From NCBI GenBank assembly GCA_019459485.1, contig JAIBEZ010000028.1:1-64000 (forward strand): a stretch of 64,000 bases of DNA. Direction: 5' to 3'. The stretch is from Prolixibacteraceae bacterium. GTDB lineage: Bacteria > Bacteroidota > Bacteroidia > Bacteroidales > Prolixibacteraceae. The notes beneath the pieces were generated by a model, which was given only the letters and a program-made list of their open reading frames with translations, ran no database searches and was not told where the DNA came from. Below are positions 5,861 through 57,780 of the stretch, in pieces. How positions within the stretch are numbered: position 1 is the stretch's first letter; every line of letters begins with the position of its first letter. The position numbers were made by a program, and so were the translations under genes.

Positions 5861-6280
5861 TTATTTTAATGTCCGCATGTAATGTACGATCGCCCAACGA
5901 TCTTCTTCATCAAGAATTTTTTTCTCGAAATTTGGCATTTCATCACGGCCAACAAACGACTGGTAATAAATTACGCCATCACTTTGAGCCTGAAATTTAG
6001 CACCTTTAAATGATTGCATTTTAGTTTTCATGCTGGCTGCTTTTGGTCCGTCACCTTCGCCAACACCACCATGGCACGATTTGCAATGTTTTGCATAAAG
6101 TAATTTGCCAACCTTTTCTGTTTCAGGGGTAGCTTTTATACTTTTCATGCTTTTGTAATTTGCAGGTACGTTCCATGCAGCGCCAACTTTCTGATCCTGT
6201 GGCACAACAAAGGCAAAAAGTGCGATTGTCATCGCGAACATTCCCAATACACTGAATAAATTTGATAATCCTTTTTTCAT
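5861..6280 (-). CDS. Periplasmic class I monoheme cytochrome c (paralog of 3557..3979)
   Basis: KLLYAKHCKSCHGGVGEGDGPKAASMKTKM...; highly similar to 3557..3979. Confidence 0.85.
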   Translation of the reverse strand: MKKGLSNLFSVLGMFAMTIALFAFVVPQDQKVGAAWNVPANYKSMKSIKATPETEKVGKLLYAKHCKSCHGGVGEGDGPKAASMKTKMQSFKGAKFQAQSDGVIYYQSFVGRDEMPNFEKKILDEEDRWAIVHYMRTLK

Positions 6281-16060: not shown

Positions 16061-16080
16061 GGAAATAAAATAATATGAAT

Positions 16081-16250
16081 ATCCGTAATATTACCCAATG
16101 TCATAAAAGTAGTTCCCTGAGCCTGCCGAAGGGCATTCAATTGTCATTTGGTAGTCATTTAGTTGTCTGGAAATTACAACTTAATGACAATAAATGACCA
16201 CAAATGACTGACGAAAAATGTCAAATGGGAAAGTAATCGATCAATCATAT
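16081..16250. repeat. Dispersed hairpin repeat, copy 1 (with nested second repeat)
   Basis: ATCCGTAATATTACCCAATGTCATAAAAG...TTGTCATTTGGTAGTCATT...AATGACAATAAATGACCACAAATGACTGACG. Confidence 0.75.
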
Positions 16251-16324
16251 AAAAAAAATCTTCGGATGCATTGAACTTTTTCTACCTTCGTGCGCTTTAC
16301 ATGAACGTATATAGAATATTAGAT

Positions 16325-18278: not shown

Positions 18279-19189
18279 TCAATTCGTAAACGCGATTGTA
18301 CCAACGTTGGTTTGCGGCTTTTGCGGCTAATCAGGTAAACACCTGCCAGAACAATTGCCATACAAAGAAGGTGGAGAAGTGTCACTTTTTCGCCATCGAA
18401 TACTCCCCACATAATGGCAAAAACCGGGATGATGTAGGTGACCGACGAGGCTGCAACCGCCGATGAGTAGCGGATCAGGCTGTTCATCAGCATCATGGCC
18501 AAAGCGGTTCCAACGATTCCAAGGGCAGCCAGGGCGAGCAAATGGACCGGCCACGACGGGTTGGCCAAAACCGGTGCAAAATCGGTGGTGAGCAGATAAG
18601 CCAATGCCACCGGACCAATAAACAGAAACGACAGTGAAGTAACCTGAATACCTGTGAGATGCGTCAGTTTCGATTTGATCTGGTTGATGCTGATGGCATA
18701 AAAACAGGTGGCCAGCACAATGTAAAACGCATAACTGTTCACAGTTCCAAGGCTGAAACCGTCTCCGGCAAGGATCAATCCTGAAGCGCCTGCCAGTCCG
18801 AGCGACAAACCCACCACCTGCATCCAGCGGAAAGCCGTTTTGTGAAAGAGTAACCCAACAATCAGCGTAAAAACCGGTGTGAGTGAATTGAGCATTCCGG
18901 CCAGCGAGCTGTTGATTTGCGTTTCGGCTTTCATAAACAGGAATGCAGGGAAAAAGCTGCCGATAAAACCGGCAATCAGCAGGCTTTTCAAATCTTTCTT
19001 CTGAAGGTTTTTCAGTTGTGCGATCGAAATGGGAAGCAGCACCAGCGAGGCCAGAATAATACGCAAAGCGCCCGCCTGTTCGGGGCTGAAACTCTTCAAT
19101 CCGATTTTCATCAGAATAAACGAACTGCCCCACACAAAGGCAAGCACCATCAGAATGGCAAACTGAAACCAGCGTTTTTCCCAGATCAT
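18275..19189 (-). CDS. EamA/DMT family transporter
   Basis: ~10 TM segments; LAFVWGSSFILMKIGLKSFSPEQAGALRIILASLVLLPI. Confidence 0.85.
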   Translation of the reverse strand: MIWEKRWFQFAILMVLAFVWGSSFILMKIGLKSFSPEQAGALRIILASLVLLPISIAQLKNLQKKDLKSLLIAGFIGSFFPAFLFMKAETQINSSLAGMLNSLTPVFTLIVGLLFHKTAFRWMQVVGLSLGLAGASGLILAGDGFSLGTVNSYAFYIVLATCFYAISINQIKSKLTHLTGIQVTSLSFLFIGPVALAYLLTTDFAPVLANPSWPVHLLALAALGIVGTALAMMLMNSLIRYSSAVAASSVTYIIPVFAIMWGVFDGEKVTLLHLLCMAIVLAGVYLISRKSRKPTLVQSRLRID

Positions 19190-28369: not shown

Positions 28370-28409
28370 TTACACAACTCTTGAAAAGAGTTACATCATT
28401 CACAGATTT
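28370..28409 (-). promoter_or_regulatory. Bipartite stress promoter motif, site 1 (P-type ATPase)
   Basis: AAATCTGTGAATGATGTAACTCTTTTCAAGAGTTGTGTAA, then TATCTTTA 21 nt on. Confidence 0.75.
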
Positions 28410-36656: not shown

Positions 36657-36796
36657 ATAATATTACCCAATGTCATAAAAGTCATTCATAGTCATTTTGT
36701 AGTCATTGAGTTGCGGGGAAGTGACAACTTAATGACAATAAATGACCACAACTGGCTGATGCATAATGCCGAATAGGTATCCAAACGGACAATCAT
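36657..36796. repeat. Dispersed hairpin repeat, copy 2
   Basis: ATAATATTACCCAATGTCATAAAAGTCATTCATAGTCATTTTGTAGTCATTGAGTTG...AATGACAATAAATGACCACAACTGGCTGA...CAAACGGACAATC. Confidence 0.8.
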
Positions 36797-36806
36797 ATTA
36801 ATTTTA

Positions 36807-40961: not shown

Positions 40962-41089
40962 GTGTTTCTGTTTTAATGAATTTTTAAAATTGAAAATCTG
41001 CTTGAATATTCTTCATGTAAGATAGATATCCATAGCAAAGAGCATATACAATTTACCCGGATTTTCAGCGGGGAATTAAATTCAGCTAA

Positions 41090-41190
41090 TGCTATGAAAG
41101 TCATTCTATGTCATTTGTTGGTCGTTGAGTTGCAGTAAAATTACACCAGAATGACAACAAATGACAAGAATTGACTGACAAAATTCATCT
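41090..41190. repeat. Dispersed hairpin repeat, copy 3 (divergent)
   Basis: GCTATGAAAGTCATTCTATGTCATTTGTTGGTCGTTGAGTTGCAG...AGAATGACAACAAATGACAAGAATTGACTGAC. Confidence 0.7.
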
Positions 41191-43693: not shown

Positions 43694-43838
43694 GTATCCG
43701 TAATATTAGCCAATGTCACAAAAGTCATTCAATTGTCATTTGGTAGTCATTAAGTTGCCAGTAAATGACTACCGAATGACAATAAATGACCACAACTGAC
43801 TGACGTAAAATGTCAAATAGGTATGCAAACGGACAATC
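43694..43838. repeat. Dispersed hairpin repeat, copy 4
   Basis: TATCCGTAATATTAGCCAATGTCACAAAAGTCATTCAATTGTCATTTGGTAGTCATTAAGTTGCCAGTAAATGACTACCGAATGACAATAAATGACCACAACTGACTGACG...CAAACGGACAATC. Confidence 0.85.
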
Positions 43839-43873
43839 TTAAAAAAACAACTGGGAAATTTAAACTTCACCGT

Positions 43874-45009: not shown

Positions 45010-45021
45010 ACTATCAATTAT

Positions 45022-46179
45022 TTAATATCTGAATATTGCTGCCAGTCCTGTTTCCGAAGGTATTTTTTCAGTTGGCAGAACCATCACCTGACCTCCCATT
45101 TTCGTTACCAATTCTGCCATATCGTCAAGCAGATCATCTACTTTAGGATTTGTTAAATCTTTTTTTTGCGTATTGCCGGTAACCAAATTTGTTATCCGAA
45201 CCGCAATCATCCGATCGGCTTCAATCAAAAGTGTATCAACTCTCCCTTCAACAGCAGCAGTAGCTACTTCCTTAATGTCATCACTGCCTTTCCCATTTGC
45301 CTTTGCTTGCTCAAACCCGGACACAAAACTGTCAAGCTTCAGTAAATACTCTGGTTCCATTATTTCCCAGGCAAGATTTACAAGCTTATCTGTTGAAACA
45401 GACGTCGGGTTGATTGCAATGCTATCGGAAAGCAGCAACGGATTTTTATTTACTTTTTGAAACAGGCTATGGTGCTCGGGTAAAGCAGCAAGAATCAGAG
45501 GCCAACCTGTAGGTTTTGAATATCTTTCATAAATATTATTCGCAACCACACGAAAGAACCGCTCAGCGTCTTTTTCCACTTCGTCTTTTCTACCACCATG
45601 ACCGTGGTGCATGCTCGTACTTTCTCCCCCTGTACCGCCATAAGATGCAATCGTTGAATGCTTGTCGGTCAATTCATCTCCCAGTGCATCTGTCATGGTC
45701 ACGGGAATATCAGACTGTAGTTCTATCTCAACAAGCGAATGGCGGTTACCTTCAAAAAGCCGGATATCATGAAGACTTAAACCCAAAATGTGATAGCGGT
45801 CAGTCGATTGCAGATATTGCCTCAGTGGCTTCGTGTGGAAACTATCGGCCGCCATTGCCAATTCGTCAACTAATACCGGCAATCCCACCACTTTAAACAA
45901 GCCGTCAGCACTAAAAACAGCCAGACCATTAGATGTGTGATTCCATAAACTGTCATCGTTAACCAGGGCTTCCAAGGGTTCAATATGTTTTTTCACTTCA
46001 CCGGCTGAATGTTTTTGTAAAAGTGATTCTTCCAATTGCCTTAAAAGATTTTTAAACCTGATTGGATCCTGAATATTTTCAGGATGACTTCGGTGAGTAG
46101 GCATGTAAAGAGAAAGACATGGTTCCTGATCTATTGTCAGGAGTTCCTGAATGAGTTCTTTGCTGAGTAATTCCATCAT
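45022..46179 (-). CDS. baeRF-family (bacterial eRF1-like) protein
   Basis: EPCLSLYMPTHRSHPENIQDPIRFKNLLRQLEESL...HHGHGGRKDEVEKDAERFFRVV. Confidence 0.7.
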   Translation of the reverse strand: MMELLSKELIQELLTIDQEPCLSLYMPTHRSHPENIQDPIRFKNLLRQLEESLLQKHSAGEVKKHIEPLEALVNDDSLWNHTSNGLAVFSADGLFKVVGLPVLVDELAMAADSFHTKPLRQYLQSTDRYHILGLSLHDIRLFEGNRHSLVEIELQSDIPVTMTDALGDELTDKHSTIASYGGTGGESTSMHHGHGGRKDEVEKDAERFFRVVANNIYERYSKPTGWPLILAALPEHHSLFQKVNKNPLLLSDSIAINPTSVSTDKLVNLAWEIMEPEYLLKLDSFVSGFEQAKANGKGSDDIKEVATAAVEGRVDTLLIEADRMIAVRITNLVTGNTQKKDLTNPKVDDLLDDMAELVTKMGGQVMVLPTEKIPSETGLAAIFRY

Positions 46180-46237
46180 ATTGTTCTTTTTTTAAATTTC
46201 ATGGGATCTAAGTTAGGAGTATGTGACACTCCAGATG

Positions 46238-46277
46238 TTACATAATTTATGGAAAAAGTTACATCATTCCCATATTC
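46238..46277 (-). promoter_or_regulatory. Bipartite stress promoter motif, site 4
   Basis: GAATATGGGAATGATGTAACTTTTTCCATAAATTATGTAA, TAACTTAG 22 nt on. Confidence 0.8.
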
Positions 46278-46429
46278 CTTTCTAAATAGCTTCTGCTTTA
46301 AGTTCAGATAGTTTTACGAGATCCGCCGGTTCATCCCGAAATCAAAGATGCCACTCGGTGGGTTCAAAATCATCATACAATTTTGTGGAAGATCTTCAGC
46401 ATTCCCATTTCTGAACAATTGGGCAGTCA

Positions 46430-46467
46430 AAGTGAGAATCGTGTAAATATTCTTAAAGATTGTGTAA
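46430..46467 (+). promoter_or_regulatory. Bipartite stress promoter motif, site 5
   Basis: AAGTGAGAATCGTGTAAATATTCTTAAAGATTGTGTAA. Confidence 0.65.
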
Positions 46468-46534
46468 AAACTTCGACAATGAAAAACTTCTACTTTGTAT
46501 CGCAGCAAGTCAGCTGCAAATAATTTTTTCTTAA

Positions 46535-46746
46535 ATGGATAAAAATAAAAACGACAATCACATTCAGCAAAACGAAGAATTGTCAAAAGGAAAAGCCTTT
46601 CAGGTAAATAATTCTAAGAGTGTAAAAATTAAAAGATGATCAGGAGTATTTAAGCCTGCAGCAACAAAACTTGATATACGCGCAACGTGCTTTATTGAAA
46701 ATTGACCACAATAAGGTGAAATTTTTGCGCGATGCGCTGGAATAAG
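46535..46746 (+). pseudogene. Small stress-regulon gene with a frameshift
   Basis: MDKNKNDNHIQQNEELSKGKAFQVNNSKSVKIKR* then, in another frame, KDDQEYLSLQQQNLIYAQRALLKIDHNKVKFLRDALE*. Confidence 0.5.
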
Positions 46747-46869
46747 GCATATGGCCTAATATAGCGGGTTCTGATTCATGGGAATTGATCAGGACCCGTT
46801 TTCATTTTTAAAGACTGATTTCGTTCTTTGACTTTGAAAAACGGGGAACCCAATTTAATTTTTTGATCT

Positions 46870-47051
46870 ATGAATCTTATAACAGGTTATCCATGTTGGC
46901 TTGTTAATGCAGGTTATGGTGAATGCTTCAGGTTATGAGATTACCGAATTTATTGAAAAGCGATTTTTCAAAATTATTTCCTGAAATTGAGCTCATTCAC
47001 GAGTTTAGCTGGACCGGGACATTTGGCAGTATCAAGGATGCACTGCCATAA
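46870..47051 (+). pseudogene. Fossil of an FAD-dependent oxidoreductase paralogous to 54129..55340
   Basis: MNLITGYPCWLVNAGYG / VNASGYEITEFIEK / DFSKLFPEIELIHEFSWTGTFGSIKDALP, in three frames and in paralog order. Confidence 0.85.
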
Positions 47052-47056
47052 TCAAA

Positions 47057-47230
47057 TTATTTATTTCCCCTCATTTTACTAAAAAGGAAAATTACAAGCC
47101 CAACTACTATTATTGTAATAATAACACCGATCCCCATTCCGGTTTTGAATATTCCACCTATAATTTCACAACCTGATAGGGTTGAAAGGAGCGTAATAAG
47201 TATTGTGGATAAAAATGTTTGTTTTCTCAT
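47057..47230 (-). CDS. Small membrane lipoprotein
   Basis: MRKQTFLSTILITLLSTLSGCEIIGGIFKTGMGIGVIITIIVVGLVIFLFSKMRGNK. Confidence 0.6.
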   Translation of the reverse strand: MRKQTFLSTILITLLSTLSGCEIIGGIFKTGMGIGVIITIIVVGLVIFLFSKMRGNK

Positions 47231-47426
47231 AATGGAACTTTTAAAATGTAAAAAACGAAAAAAATACCTGCTTTGCTTAACTTTCAATAACAAACATAAA
47301 TTAGGGGGGCAATATCTTAGTGATCAATTGCCCACCCTAATTCCATTGTACCTCAAGTAATGTCATATATCTTGTCGTACATGTTTTGTTTTTTATTTAA
47401 TTTAGCATTACTATTAATGTTAAGAC

Positions 47427-47518
47427 TTAATACCCGTTGTTTTTTACCGCCTGCTCAGCTGCTTCAACATTGATTGATTCCGCGACGGCAGACAATGCTG
47501 CATCGGCTTCTTTTTCAT
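47427..47518 (-). pseudogene. Remnant of a small ORF
   Basis: HEKEADAALSAVAESINVEAAEQAVKNNGY* with no in-frame start; downstream of motif site 6. Confidence 0.4.
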
Positions 47519-47598
47519 GTTGTGATTTTTAAATGTTTAAATTGTAACCATGCATTAATTTGATAATGCAAAGTTGTACATAGTGCCAATGGTAATTC

Positions 47599-47638
47599 TT
47601 ACACAATTTTGAGATTAATTTACATTATTTCCACAATT
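47599..47638 (-). promoter_or_regulatory. Bipartite stress promoter motif, site 6
   Basis: GAAATTGTGGAAATAATGTAAATTAATCTCAAAATTGTGTAA, CAACTTTG 22 nt on. Confidence 0.7.
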
Positions 47639-47725
47639 TCCGGGTGTAGAATCGATTCCATTTTGTTCTTGTAAATACCGTCAGGACTCACTCGACTCTG
47701 GGAATAATTGAGGCGCCTATTCATT

Positions 47726-49888
47726 CTAAGCAGGCACCTTACCTGGTTTTTCGCGTTCCCAGAAACGATGCTGCGCGATGGCCTTAATAAATTCGTCCGG
47801 ACTATGGTCAATTAACACTCCGGCTTCAGTGATCTTTTCACCCGCGTTACCTTCACCATGCAGTTTACTTCCAACGGCAGATAGTTCTGTCAGTTTTGCA
47901 CCAGCTCCATTGGCGGCGATGGCTTTACAATGTTTATATGCTTCATTAACAAAGTGAACAGCATCGGGTTCTCCCTGAAGCAAGGCAGCGCTTTTAGTTC
48001 CGTCAGCCACATACACTGCGTCGAATAACACGGAAGCCGATGTCAGGAAACTCTGATCAACTTTGATCTTATTGCCATTTGCATCAGCAATGAATCCCAA
48101 ATGAGGTGCAACAATCTTTGTTTTCGCCCCCGCTGCTTCCAGCGCCAGTTTCATGGTATTCAGCGAGTCGCCGTCAACGCCATCTGCCGCGAGTATGGCT
48201 ATCTGCCTTGTTTTAATGGTATTCTTCACGGTAGCTGCCATGCTCAGTGCTTTCGAAATTTTCAATTCAGGATTTACATCGAAAGGTTGAAAATCAGCAG
48301 GATCTCCATCAGCCGGGATGTTTTGATTCAGATTCTCAGCAGGCTTGGGTACCGGCATACCAAGTCCTTCAGCAACTTTTTCAGCAAGCGTTTTATCAAC
48401 CCGTGTAAGCATACCAACCACGCGTTCGCGGATGGCTGGCGTTTCGAGTTTACCTAATTCGAACCTGAATGCATTGATGATATGATTTTTTTCCGGTACA
48501 CTCTGGCTGTTGAAAAAGAGCGTGGCCTGGCTGAAATGATCAAAGAAACTATGGCTCCGCGCCCGTACTTTTTGTGCATCTATCCGTTCGTGGTAAGAAA
48601 CAAATCCGCCTTCGGCTGCTTTGGCCTGAAATGGACAGCCTCCTCCGGTTGTGTTGGGATGATAGCTCGATTGGCCTGTGTTGATGGTTTGCCGCATGTG
48701 CCCGTCGCGCTGATTATTATGCACGGGCGCTATCGGACGATTGATCGGTATTTCATGAAAGTTGGGACTGCCTAACCTGCTCAATTGCGTATCGGTGTAC
48801 GAAAATAAGCGTCCCTGTAGTAAAGGATCGTTACTGAAATCAATTCCTGAAACAACATGACCCGGATGAAATGCCACCTGCTCCGTTTCGGCAAAGAAAT
48901 TATCGGGATTGCGGTTCAGCGTCATCTTACCAATAATTTGCACCGGGACAATTTCTTCGGGAATAAGCTTTGTAGGGTCAAGCAGATCAAAGTCAAATTT
49001 GAATTCGTCTTTTTCTTCAACAATCTGAACGCCAAAATTCCATTCAGGAAAATTGCCGGATTCAATTGCTTCCCATAAATCCCTGCGGTGAAAATCAGAG
49101 TCCTTTCCCGATAAATTCTGGGCTTCATCCCATGCAAGCGAATGCACTCCCAACACTGGTTTCCAGTGAAATTTTACAAATACTGACTCATTATTTTCAT
49201 TTACAAAACGGAAAGTGTGCACGCCAAAACCTTCCATCATGCGCAAACTTCGCGGAATGGCGCGGTCGCTCATAGCCCACATGATGGTATGCATGCTTTC
49301 AGGAGTTAAGGAAATAAAATCCCAAAATGTATCATGAGCAGAAGCAGCCTGGGGCATTTCGTGATTCGGTTCAGGTTTAACCGCATGAATCAAGTCGGGG
49401 AATTTAACTGCATCCTGGATAAAGAAAACCGGCACATTATTCCCGACCAGGTCAAAGTTTCCTTCTTCGGTATAAAACTTAACCGCGAAGCCCCTTACAT
49501 CACGCGCCAGATCTGAGGAACCACGTGAACCTGCCACTGTACTGAACCGTACAAATACGGGTGTTTTGGTGCCCGGAGTTTGAAGGAATCCGGCTTTCGT
49601 ATATTTTGACAGCGATTCTGTAAGTTCAAAAACACCGTGAGCACCGCTTCCCCTCGCATGTACAATGCGCTCCGGAATTCGTTCATGATCGAAATGCATA
49701 ATTTTCTCACGAAGTTGAAAATCTTCCAAAAGGGTTGGGCCACGCTCTCCGGCTTTCAATGAATTTTGATCATCATTGATGCGCAAACCCTGATTGGTTG
49801 TCATAAATTCGTCTTGCCCGCTTTCTGTGTCTTTAGCAAGATCATCGGTCTTGGCATTTTCATGCACTCCTTTTTTTGTTGGTTCCAT
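47726..49888 (-). CDS. katE: Large-subunit (HPII-type) catalase with C-terminal GATase-like domain
   Basis: [50 protein letters not shown]-terminal [38 protein letters not shown]. Confidence 0.95.
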
Positions 49889-49987
49889 ATTTATAATTTT
49901 AAGTGATTGTTATTGCCTTTCGTTTTTATAATGTATTCATTATGAATTTTATGTGGACTAATTTAGGAGATAGACACCCTGCATGTG

Positions 49988-50026
49988 TTACAGAATTTTC
50001 GAAAAAAATTACATCATTCACACATC
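49988..50026 (-). promoter_or_regulatory. Bipartite stress promoter motif, site 7 (catalase)
   Basis: AGATGTGTGAATGATGTAATTTTTTTCGAAAATTCTGTAA, TAAATTAG 22 nt on. Confidence 0.85.
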
Positions 50027-50099
50027 TTCCTATTTTGAGTTTTTTGAAAAACTGTTATTTTTTTATCGCGAATCCCTATGTTATTTATACCGTCAGCAA

Positions 50100-50137
50100 A
50101 AGTGAGAATCATGTAAAATTTTCCCGGAATTCTGTAA
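50100..50137 (+). promoter_or_regulatory. Bipartite stress promoter motif, site 8
   Basis: AAAGTGAGAATCATGTAAAATTTTCCCGGAATTCTGTAA, GATATTTG 22 nt on. Confidence 0.75.
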
Positions 50138-50214
50138 GGACAATCCAGTTACCGACTCCGATATTTGTATCTGGAATTAGTATTTAATTATTGAACCTTT
50201 AAAAATTAATGATC

Positions 50215-50370
50215 ATGGGAAATTTACTTTACATCATCGCCGTCATACTGATTATCGGATGGCTTATTGGATTTGTAGGATACGGCACAGGAGGGATCAT
50301 TCACATTTTACTTGTTATTGCTATCATAGCAGTACTGATAAATGTTATACAAGGAAGACGGTCTATTTAA
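50215..50370 (+). CDS. lmo0937-like small membrane protein (missed by the ORF track)
   Basis: MGNLLYIIAVILIIGWLIGFVGYGTGGIIHILLVIAIIAVLINVIQGRRSI*. Confidence 0.85.
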   Translation: MGNLLYIIAVILIIGWLIGFVGYGTGGIIHILLVIAIIAVLINVIQGRRSI

Positions 50371-50483
50371 ATCATCTGTTTATGGTGAAAATGGTTTGAT
50401 ATTTTCGTGTAATTGTATAACGAATTTTGGAAGCCCGTGGGCTAAATATGTCGGAAATTTAATCACATTTAAAAATTTAAAAC

Positions 50484-50669
50484 ATGAACACAACAGAAAT
50501 GAAAGGAAACTGGAATGAGCTGAAAGGAAAGCTCAAAAAAAGCTATGCGGAATTAACTGATAATGACCTGTTATATGAAGAAGGCCGTGAAGATGAACTA
50601 TACGGCAGACTGCAACAGAAGCTGGGAAAAACCAAAGAAGAAGTGAAAAAGCTTTTTGAGGATCTCTAG
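50484..50669 (+). CDS. CsbD family protein
   Basis: MNTTEMKGNWNELKGKLKKSYAELTDNDLLYEEGREDELYGRLQQKLGKTKEEVKK. Confidence 0.9.
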   Translation: MNTTEMKGNWNELKGKLKKSYAELTDNDLLYEEGREDELYGRLQQKLGKTKEEVKKLFEDL

Positions 50670-50759
50670 TGATGGGTGTTAATGAGCCGTTTAAACCAAA
50701 TTTGGTTAAGCGGCTCATTAAAATAGAATAAAAATTCGAAACAATTAAAACTAAAAATC

Positions 50760-51050
50760 ATGAGCTCAAAAAAAGTAATCGTCGGAGTTGTTGCCGGAGT
50801 CGTTGCGGGTGTCGCAACCGGTGCATTGTTAGGTTTATTATTTGCCCCGAAAAGAGGTTCTGAAACCCGGGCAAAAATAAAGACGCTGGGAAATGAATAT
50901 GCGAATGTGGTTAAAGATAAATTCAATGAATTTCTTGATGGGATCATTGAAAAGTTTGAAAAGGGGAAGGACGAAGTTTCAGAATTAACCCAAAAGGTTG
51001 AAACTAAAATTGAAGATGAATTTAATGGTGTTCCAGGTCAATTTTCTTAA
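50760..51050 (+). CDS. YtxH domain-containing protein
   Basis: VGVVAGVVAGVATGALLGLLFAPKRGSETRAKI. Confidence 0.85.
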   Translation: MSSKKVIVGVVAGVVAGVATGALLGLLFAPKRGSETRAKIKTLGNEYANVVKDKFNEFLDGIIEKFEKGKDEVSELTQKVETKIEDEFNGVPGQFS

Positions 51051-51145
51051 ATATTTAATTGAAGCAAAAGAAGCGGGAGGAAAGTTCCCGCTCAAAAGGA
51101 CAATTAGGTATCACAGGTTGTCTTCCTTTTCAATTTCTTCGTTTG

Positions 51146-54128: not shown

Positions 54129-55340
54129 TTATCTGTTAAATGAGTAAAGCAATGCGTCTTTATTTTTTTTTCCTGTAATCATGTCGCATATTATTTCGGC
54201 GGCAATTACACTGAAGGTAATTCCATTTCCACCGAAACCCAGAGCATAATAGGTATGAGGTGTTTTAGCGTATGTTCCGATGTATGGCAGCGCATCTTTT
54301 GTCGAGCCGAATGTTCCTGTCCAGCAAAATTCGGGAATGAGTTCCGTTGCGGGAAATAATTTTGAAAAGTCGTTTTTTAGTAATGCAGATTTTTTTTTGA
54401 TTAGTTTATCCCGTTTGCCGGGGCTGTAAAAATCTTCGTCTCTTCCGCCAATAATTATTCTATTGTCGGTGGTTAATCGCATGTATAAATAAGGGTCAGC
54501 CGTATTCCACAACAACGTTTTATCCTTCCAGACCGGCATTGGCGATTGTATATGTTCTGATGCAAGTGCATAGGTTGAATGAAGGTTTACGATTTTCTTT
54601 TCCAAAAATTCTGTTATCTCGTAACCTGATGCGTTCACAATTTTATTTGCAGTGATAATGTGCCCCTTTTCCGTAATTAATTTCACTCCCGTTTTTTTAT
54701 ATTCTATTCCTGAAATTACAGTCCGGTCAAATACCTGAAGTCCTTTTTTTATACTTGCTTTAAGCAAAGCATGGGTAAACATGTATGCATCAGTGGTGGC
54801 ACCTTGCTCCGAGAGGATAGCTGCCGGAGAAGAGAACCCGAATTGTTGCTGTATTTCTTTTTCACCCAATAATTGAACTTGAAATCCTGATTTTTTACGA
54901 ATTAAAAATTCTTTTTCAATCAGTTTTTTATCTTTTTTATATGCAGCGAAAAACAAACTCTTTTGTTTTTCAAATGGGGTGAATTTAATTTTCTGTGATA
55001 TGCTTTGCAGGGTGTCAATAGATTCAGAACACATCCTGTATGATCGTACCGCAGTTTGCAAACCGATTTGGTTTGCAAGCTCGCACAATGGTTTGTCTAA
55101 TTCATATTGCAGTAATGATGTGCTTGCGCATGTGCTGCCTAAGCCAACAGTTCGCGCGTCAACGACAATACAATTTAAGCCGGCATTTACAAGATAATAA
55201 GCAGTTAAAGCTCCGGAAATTCCGCCACCGATTATTGCAACATCTGTTTTAACAGACTGTTCCAACTTTGGATAGTTGGCTTGCAATCCGCTGTTTATTA
55301 GCCAATATGGATAACCTGTTGTAAGATTCATAACAGACAA
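54129..55340 (-). CDS. FAD-dependent oxidoreductase (DAO family)
   Basis: TDVAIIGGGISGALTAYYLVNAGLNCIVVDARTVGLGSTCASTSLLQYELD. Confidence 0.9.
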   Translation of the reverse strand: MSVMNLTTGYPYWLINSGLQANYPKLEQSVKTDVAIIGGGISGALTAYYLVNAGLNCIVVDARTVGLGSTCASTSLLQYELDKPLCELANQIGLQTAVRSYRMCSESIDTLQSISQKIKFTPFEKQKSLFFAAYKKDKKLIEKEFLIRKKSGFQVQLLGEKEIQQQFGFSSPAAILSEQGATTDAYMFTHALLKASIKKGLQVFDRTVISGIEYKKTGVKLITEKGHIITANKIVNASGYEITEFLEKKIVNLHSTYALASEHIQSPMPVWKDKTLLWNTADPYLYMRLTTDNRIIIGGRDEDFYSPGKRDKLIKKKSALLKNDFSKLFPATELIPEFCWTGTFGSTKDALPYIGTYAKTPHTYYALGFGGNGITFSVIAAEIICDMITGKKNKDALLYSFNR

Positions 55341-57615: not shown

Positions 57616-57644
57616 ATACCAGTTATAATTATCTATTAAATTAC

Positions 57645-57780
57645 TTAATTCATTGAAGTCATCAAATTGTCATTCGATGATCATTAAGTTGCCATGAAAT
57701 TACAACAATTACAACAATTGACAACAACTGACCATGATTGACTTCCACAAAATACCAAACAGGTAAGCAACCGGACAATC
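57645..57780. repeat. Dispersed hairpin repeat, copy 5
   Basis: TTAATTCATTGAAGTCATCAAATTGTCATTCGATGATCATTAAGTTGCCATGAAATTAC...GACAACAACTGACCATGATTGAC...AAACAGGTAAGCAACCGGACAATC. Confidence 0.75.

Follow-up and report, generated by a model that had tools for sequence, protein, structure and literature searches.

How did a 182-bp piece of an FAD-dependent oxidoreductase gene come to lie at positions 46870-47051, 7 kb from an intact gene of the same family, and was it a single gene that was lost there? The window, meaning the whole stretch of 64,000 nucleotides that was analyzed, comprises positions 1-64000 of contig C17 in a genome assembly of 5.53 Mb in 114 contigs, with an estimated contamination of 3.67%. 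The piece was initially explained by a partial, inverted duplication of the window's own island, followed by decay. We conclude instead that it is very probably the oxidoreductase part of a second stress-gene cluster of the type found intact on another contig, C15, which collapsed by serial deletions. The features are listed in Table 1.

Table 1 Features of the fossil locus and its surroundings, in window coordinates.
Feature	Position	Strand	Remarks
Variable segment (baeRF, fossil, catalase, CsbD, YtxH)	45011..51123	.	Absent from G012, where the flanks meet
Direct repeats, ~26 bp	about 45010-44985 and about 51149-51124	-	ATGAAAAACGAAGAAATTGAAAAGGA and ATGACAAACGAAGAAATTGAAAAGGA; segment borders
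TGTAA-N16-TGTAA promoter element of dead DUF6799 gene	46442..46467	+	Surviving
Whole collapsed remnant	46453..47647	+	Collinear with C15:3252-9277
DUF6799 gene (gene A), 5' end	46535..46634	+	C15:3337-3433
DUF2383/PA2169-family gene (gene C), 3' end, 38 codons	46629..46742	+	C15:4827-4940; 70% amino acid identity
DAO fossil block 1	46870..46908	+	Codons 1-13
DAO fossil block 1b (LVNAGY)	46900..46917	+	Codons 47-52; 17/18 identical to C15:5203-5220
DAO fossil block 2	46916..46954	+	Codons ~231-243; 82% to C15:5755-5819
DAO fossil block 3	46953..47050	+	Codons ~318-350; 87% to C15:6016-6113, E 2e-27
Intact 57-codon lipoprotein-like frame	47060..47230	-	Begins MRKQTFLSTILITLLSTLSGCEIIGGIFK; 70% amino acid identity to C15:7543-7376
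Possible acidic-protein gene, 5' end	47361..47395	-	C15:8172-8206; 27/35, 31 bits, E 0.02
DUF892 (YciF-like) gene, 3' end	47448..47511	-	90% over 69 bp, C15:8589-8657, E 9e-20
DUF892 gene, 5' end and promoter	47512..47647	-	79% over 136 bp, C15:9143-9277, E 8e-27
TGTAA-N16-TGTAA promoter element of dead DUF892 gene	47599..47624	-	Surviving; points towards lipoprotein frame
Intact large catalase, adjoins fossil	47726..49888	-	82% amino acid identity to C15:16048-18207; 84% to G006
Intact CsbD-like gene	50484..50669	+	61% amino acid identity to C15:12704-12886; PF05532; also in C15-type cluster
Intact DAO paralog	54129..55340	-	403 aa; orthologue of G012:C107 24081-25286

The DAO fossil and its intact relatives

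The piece is a fossil of a gene of the DAO family (PF01266), and the initial annotation had its coordinates and peptides right. A genome-wide search with the protein encoded at 54129-55340 recovered it (E 1e-10), and blastn of 46840-47120 against that gene returned the three blocks previously described, collinear and on one strand, with 31 of 33 positions identical in block 1 (94%, E 1e-10), 37 of 45 in block 2 (82%, E 4e-9) and 79 of 101 in block 3 (78%, E 2e-20; window 54283-54383). Nucleotide similarity to an intact gene, which ranges from E 2e-20 to 4e-9 and marks the fossil as a pseudogene, was thus found in these blocks. To the three blocks a fourth, block 1b, has to be added, so that what had been taken for a single first junction is in fact two, with block 1b between them. 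It overlaps block 1 at the junction and is too short for significance by itself, and is supported by its order and frame. While the DAO copies at 54129-55340 and on C15 are intact, in the fossil only about 62 of 400 codons are left, in four pieces, which agrees with the large internal deletions proposed before, and the reading frame is destroyed by frame changes and stops. Codons 14-46 are missing and with them the nucleotide-binding region, and no full-length FAD-binding domain is present.

A repeated GGTTATG had also been noted at the first junction. Its reading as the scar of a single deletion was rejected, as each copy is native to the block in which it stands, with GCAGGTTAT at codons 50-52 and CCGGTTATG at codons 234-236 of the C15 gene. 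The junction lies between the two copies, whereas a deletion between repeats leaves only one.

The gene at 54129-55340 is indeed an intact paralog, encoding a full-length PF01266 domain with an FAD-binding motif (E 6e-54). It falls below the cut-off of each named NCBIfam enzyme, scoring 89 bits against glycine oxidase ThiO (cut-off 251) and 93 bits against pipecolate oxidase (cut-off 600). It is 91% identical to the copy in the related genome G012 and 74% identical to a third copy in its own genome, also intact, which the whole-genome protein search located on C15 from 5065 to about 6264-6267. The longest block of the fossil is 87% identical to this C15 gene, compared to 78% for the window gene, and synonymous divergence over the same DAO codons is also lower (dS 0.58 versus 0.92). 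Because it is closer to the C15 copy, the fossil did not arise by decay of a copy of the gene at 54129-55340; judged by both measures, its nearest intact relative is the C15 gene and not the one 7 kb away.

A larger remnant collinear with contig C15

The assembly is a draft, and C15 is regarded as a putative member of the same genome on the basis of its similar composition, with a GC content of 0.391 versus 0.407 and tetranucleotide usage correlated with that of window 40-64 kb (r 0.87). Comparison of 46150-47730 with C15 showed that the fossil is part of a remnant of 1,195 bp, which corresponds to 6,026 bp of C15 in the same order and the same orientation. The matches are collinear and score 187, 141, 119, 116, 102, 94 and 59 bits, and the blocks have E values of 8e-48 to 3e-9, one weak block apart. 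Single matches of dinucleotide shuffles of 46453-47647 against C15 never exceeded 37 bits.

Gene families were assigned using Pfam and NCBIfam. The intact cluster on C15 reads DUF6799, YflT-like, DUF2383, DAO, YetF/DUF421, lipoprotein, acidic protein and DUF892, and remnants of gene A, gene C, the DAO gene, the lipoprotein gene and the DUF892 gene follow in this order in the window, with no trace of the YflT-like and YetF genes. By similarity, the remnant carries pieces of DUF6799, DUF2383, DAO and DUF892/YciF genes, hence of four genes at least, with a weak fifth, the acidic-protein block, for which order is the only support. The gene A piece together with its upstream region is 78% identical to C15 over 186 bp (E 1e-33), intact gene C on C15 belongs to TIGR02284/PF09537, and the start of the DAO gene is preceded by its spacer, as it is on C15.

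Stress clusters with CsbD, YtxH, DUF892/YciF, DUF2383, Dps-like ferritin, catalase and PRC-barrel genes occur as overlapping sets on C15, in window 40-64 kb and on contig C120 of genome G110; what distinguishes the fossil site is that one such cluster has been largely destroyed. C15 itself has two DUF2383/PA2169-family genes (L016/L043; C15:4491-4943 and 18288-18737), which are 67% identical and flank its stress cluster.

Deletions and the course of decay

Relative to C15, the remnant has gaps of about 1,399, 105, 535, 224, 1,250, 497, 339 and 490 bp, of which the second and third form a single 644-bp gap that the short block 1b divides. About eight deletions took out 80% of the cluster, and approximately 20% is kept. 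Exact microhomology at the junctions has a mean of 3.25 bp versus 2.0 for random breakpoints (p about 0.002), with precision limited by the fact that breakpoints are read against a diverged copy, and it stands out at only three of the eight junctions (TTAAAA, TTTTC and TTGA).

The ratio dN/dS between the remnant and C15 is 0.22 over the pooled codons and 0.095 in the DAO blocks (14 synonymous and 7 nonsynonymous changes); in the 24 codons of gene A it is above 1, with too few sites to interpret. The mainly synonymous divergence of the DAO blocks (dN/dS ~0.1) suggests that most of it arose while both copies were still working, and that the parent gene was functional for a long time and collapsed late. 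With the copies from the window and G012 as outgroups, 5 nonsynonymous and 4 synonymous changes fall on the fossil branch, and 1 and 5, respectively, on the branch of C15. The numbers are small, and their direction is that expected if constraint was lost late.

A second cluster of the C15 type would thus once have stood between baeRF and the catalase gene, worked for a long time and then become dispensable, probably since related genes remained on C15. At least seven, and probably eight, deletions of approximately 100 to 1,400 bp would have left 1.2 kb of the original ~6.0 kb, mostly sparing gene ends and spacers. Some of them may have ended at the short direct repeats TTAAAA, TTTTC and TTGA, which would fit replication slippage or RecA-independent end joining. 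We infer the order of the deletions as well as redundancy as their cause. Since C15 is a paralog that has diverged (dS about 0.54), the gene content of the fossil site before decay, and with it the complete ancestor, is likewise a reconstruction, and the YflT-like and YetF genes may never have been present there.

Fast deletion of bacterial pseudogenes is well documented (Kuo and Ochman 2010, PMC2916853), and a 'deletional bias' has been described in bacteria (Mira, Ochman and Moran 2001, as cited in PMC3899985). Known deletion-eroded pseudogenes likewise show large internal deletions and have related intact copies in the genome. In this case, however, several neighboring genes collapsed jointly, and an intact collinear copy in the genome makes nearly every deletion mappable. 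The decay is ordinary deletion-biased pseudogene erosion and otherwise shows nothing beyond the known pattern. Another strongly shortened gene was seen in G012 (L042:2011-2145), where a baeRF remnant of ~135 bp adjoins a PRC-barrel gene; it may represent a similar loss in the same lineage.

Genomic setting, promoter elements and alternative readings

The remnant lies in a variable segment of 6.1 kb that is absent from G012 (window 45009 corresponds to G012 18268, and window 51124 to G012 18293), in a region where contig C107 of that genome is syntenic with window 25.6-63.8 kb, the main blocks being 81-90% identical. In G012, the sequence of the border repeats, ATGAMAAACGAAGAAATTGAAAAGGA, is present once and opens an uninterrupted 75-aa gene. 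The segment was either gained with a duplication of the repeat or lost in G012 by recombination between the repeats. In G080 and G143, baeRF adjoins hydrolase genes, so at least the baeRF part looks ancestral. In addition to the fossil, intact genes for baeRF, catalase, CsbD and YtxH lie in the segment. The C15 homologue of the catalase gene differs from it in orientation and order; a recent duplication from C15 was rejected as its source, because the window catalase is slightly closer to that of G006. Of the 140 family genomes, only 4 have close relatives of the DAO and likewise only 4 of the catalase, which indicates accessory gene content.

An intact second copy, for which the initial annotation had proposed to check related genomes, was found at this site in none of the relatives searched (61 genomes with the fossil DNA; 140 family genomes with C15 DNA or the DAO protein). 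No other genome searched in the family has the intact C15 cluster at the nucleotide level, and G012 lacks the segment. This limits what may be concluded about the ancestor, not the homology. Contig records yielded only JAHEYU010000034.1 (the G012 record) and one remote match, the DAO homologues in plasmid records were without exception remote, with identities below 60%, and the 64-kb window contains no tRNA that would link the segment to integration.

Two copies of a TGTAA-N16-TGTAA direct repeat with a 21-bp period survive in the remnant. The window has 16 sites in the TRTAA form versus 0.7 expected, including those at 28370, 38302, 42494, 46238, 46442, 47599, 49988, 50112, 54071, 57202, 59962, 60154 and 63875. 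Sites also occur on C15 (locus L016) and in G012 (locus L041), and several of the window sites are conserved in G012. Genome-wide, the TGTAAC form has 22 matches compared to 9 for the reversed control. Many sites are followed by an AACTTTG- or AACTTAG-like (-7) box about 20-25 bp downstream and by a gene start 55-100 bp downstream. The genes behind the element include those for baeRF, a Dps-like ferritin, catalase, a cytochrome c peroxidase-like protein, a universal stress protein and an M48-like peptidase, which suggests that it is probably the operator of a stress regulon. No report of a TGTAAC direct-repeat site in Bacteroidetes was met in the literature collection searched. Other repeats in the window include a dispersed intergenic family of ~150 bp (36658-36806, 43701-43841, 41078-41186, 57636-57780 and 16067-16262), which matches the genome at about 40 places, in most cases with 72-87% identity, and has members in G012. 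In addition, a stretch of ~39-54 bp at 61833-61886 matches four successive copies spaced by 45 bp in G012 (L041:12004-12192), possibly a short tandem array.

Several other readings of the remnant were considered. Chance similarity or an artefact of the draft assembly has practically no probability, as the bit scores lie far above those of the shuffles, the remnant differs from C15 by roughly 10-28%, which excludes chimeric C15 reads, and it lies in the interior of a 298-kb contig. An inverted duplication of the window's island from the side of 54129-55340, followed by decay, would explain why the DAO blocks match that gene on the other strand, yet it is highly improbable. Beyond its closer relationship to C15, the fossil has neighbors that match C15 collinearly and not the surroundings of 54129-55340, where only the DAO blocks and a promoter element of ~80 bp are in common; these are also the only matches of the remnant in the genome outside C15. 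Furthermore, the gene at 54129-55340 is orthologous to the G012 copy, yet G012 lacks the fossil. Since the remnant is collinear with C15, no inverted duplication is needed, and the opposite orientation of the fossil is just how the second cluster lies. The remnant could also have arrived already short, for example in a horizontally acquired segment between the direct repeats, with the deletions having occurred in the donor or during integration. The uninterrupted 75-aa gene of G012, whose first ~26 bp flank the segment here, the rearrangement of catalase and CsbD genes relative to C15 and the sparse distribution of DAO and catalase would fit this, but deletion between the direct repeats explains G012 equally, the baeRF part looks ancestral and no mobile-element gene was recognized among the main proteins of the segment, so that we regard such an arrival as unlikely.

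The remaining readings concern retained function. The lipoprotein-like frame, which has no Pfam or NCBIfam match, is the one gene frame of the remnant that is unbroken. Relatives of it occur in G110 and G016, and, to judge from its sequence, it may be a working gene. It is possible, if rather doubtful, that selection kept the remnant as a locus in which the YciF-type promoter drives this gene and the rest is leader sequence. The frame is intact amid broken genes, it has a surviving TGTAA-N16-TGTAA element with a -7-like box upstream on its own strand, and C15 reads YciF, acidic protein and lipoprotein on the same strand; however, selection is only weakly indicated by a dN/dS of 0.38 across the 57 codons, and about 369 bp separate the element from the frame. 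A collapse that was not passive, with deletions tolerated only around the two regulon promoters and the lipoprotein gene, would make the remnant a compact stress-induced lipoprotein locus or a set of spare operator sites for the regulator of the TGTAA-N16-TGTAA element, and is distinctly unlikely.

The collapse of a second C15-type cluster therefore remains the preferred reading. It gives the fossil a corrected origin and places the loss at the level of a cluster rather than a single gene, providing a small worked example of how accessory genes that functioned for long are removed by large deletions. Through the conserved promoter element that outlasted two of these genes, the regulon of the stress genes could become directly testable.
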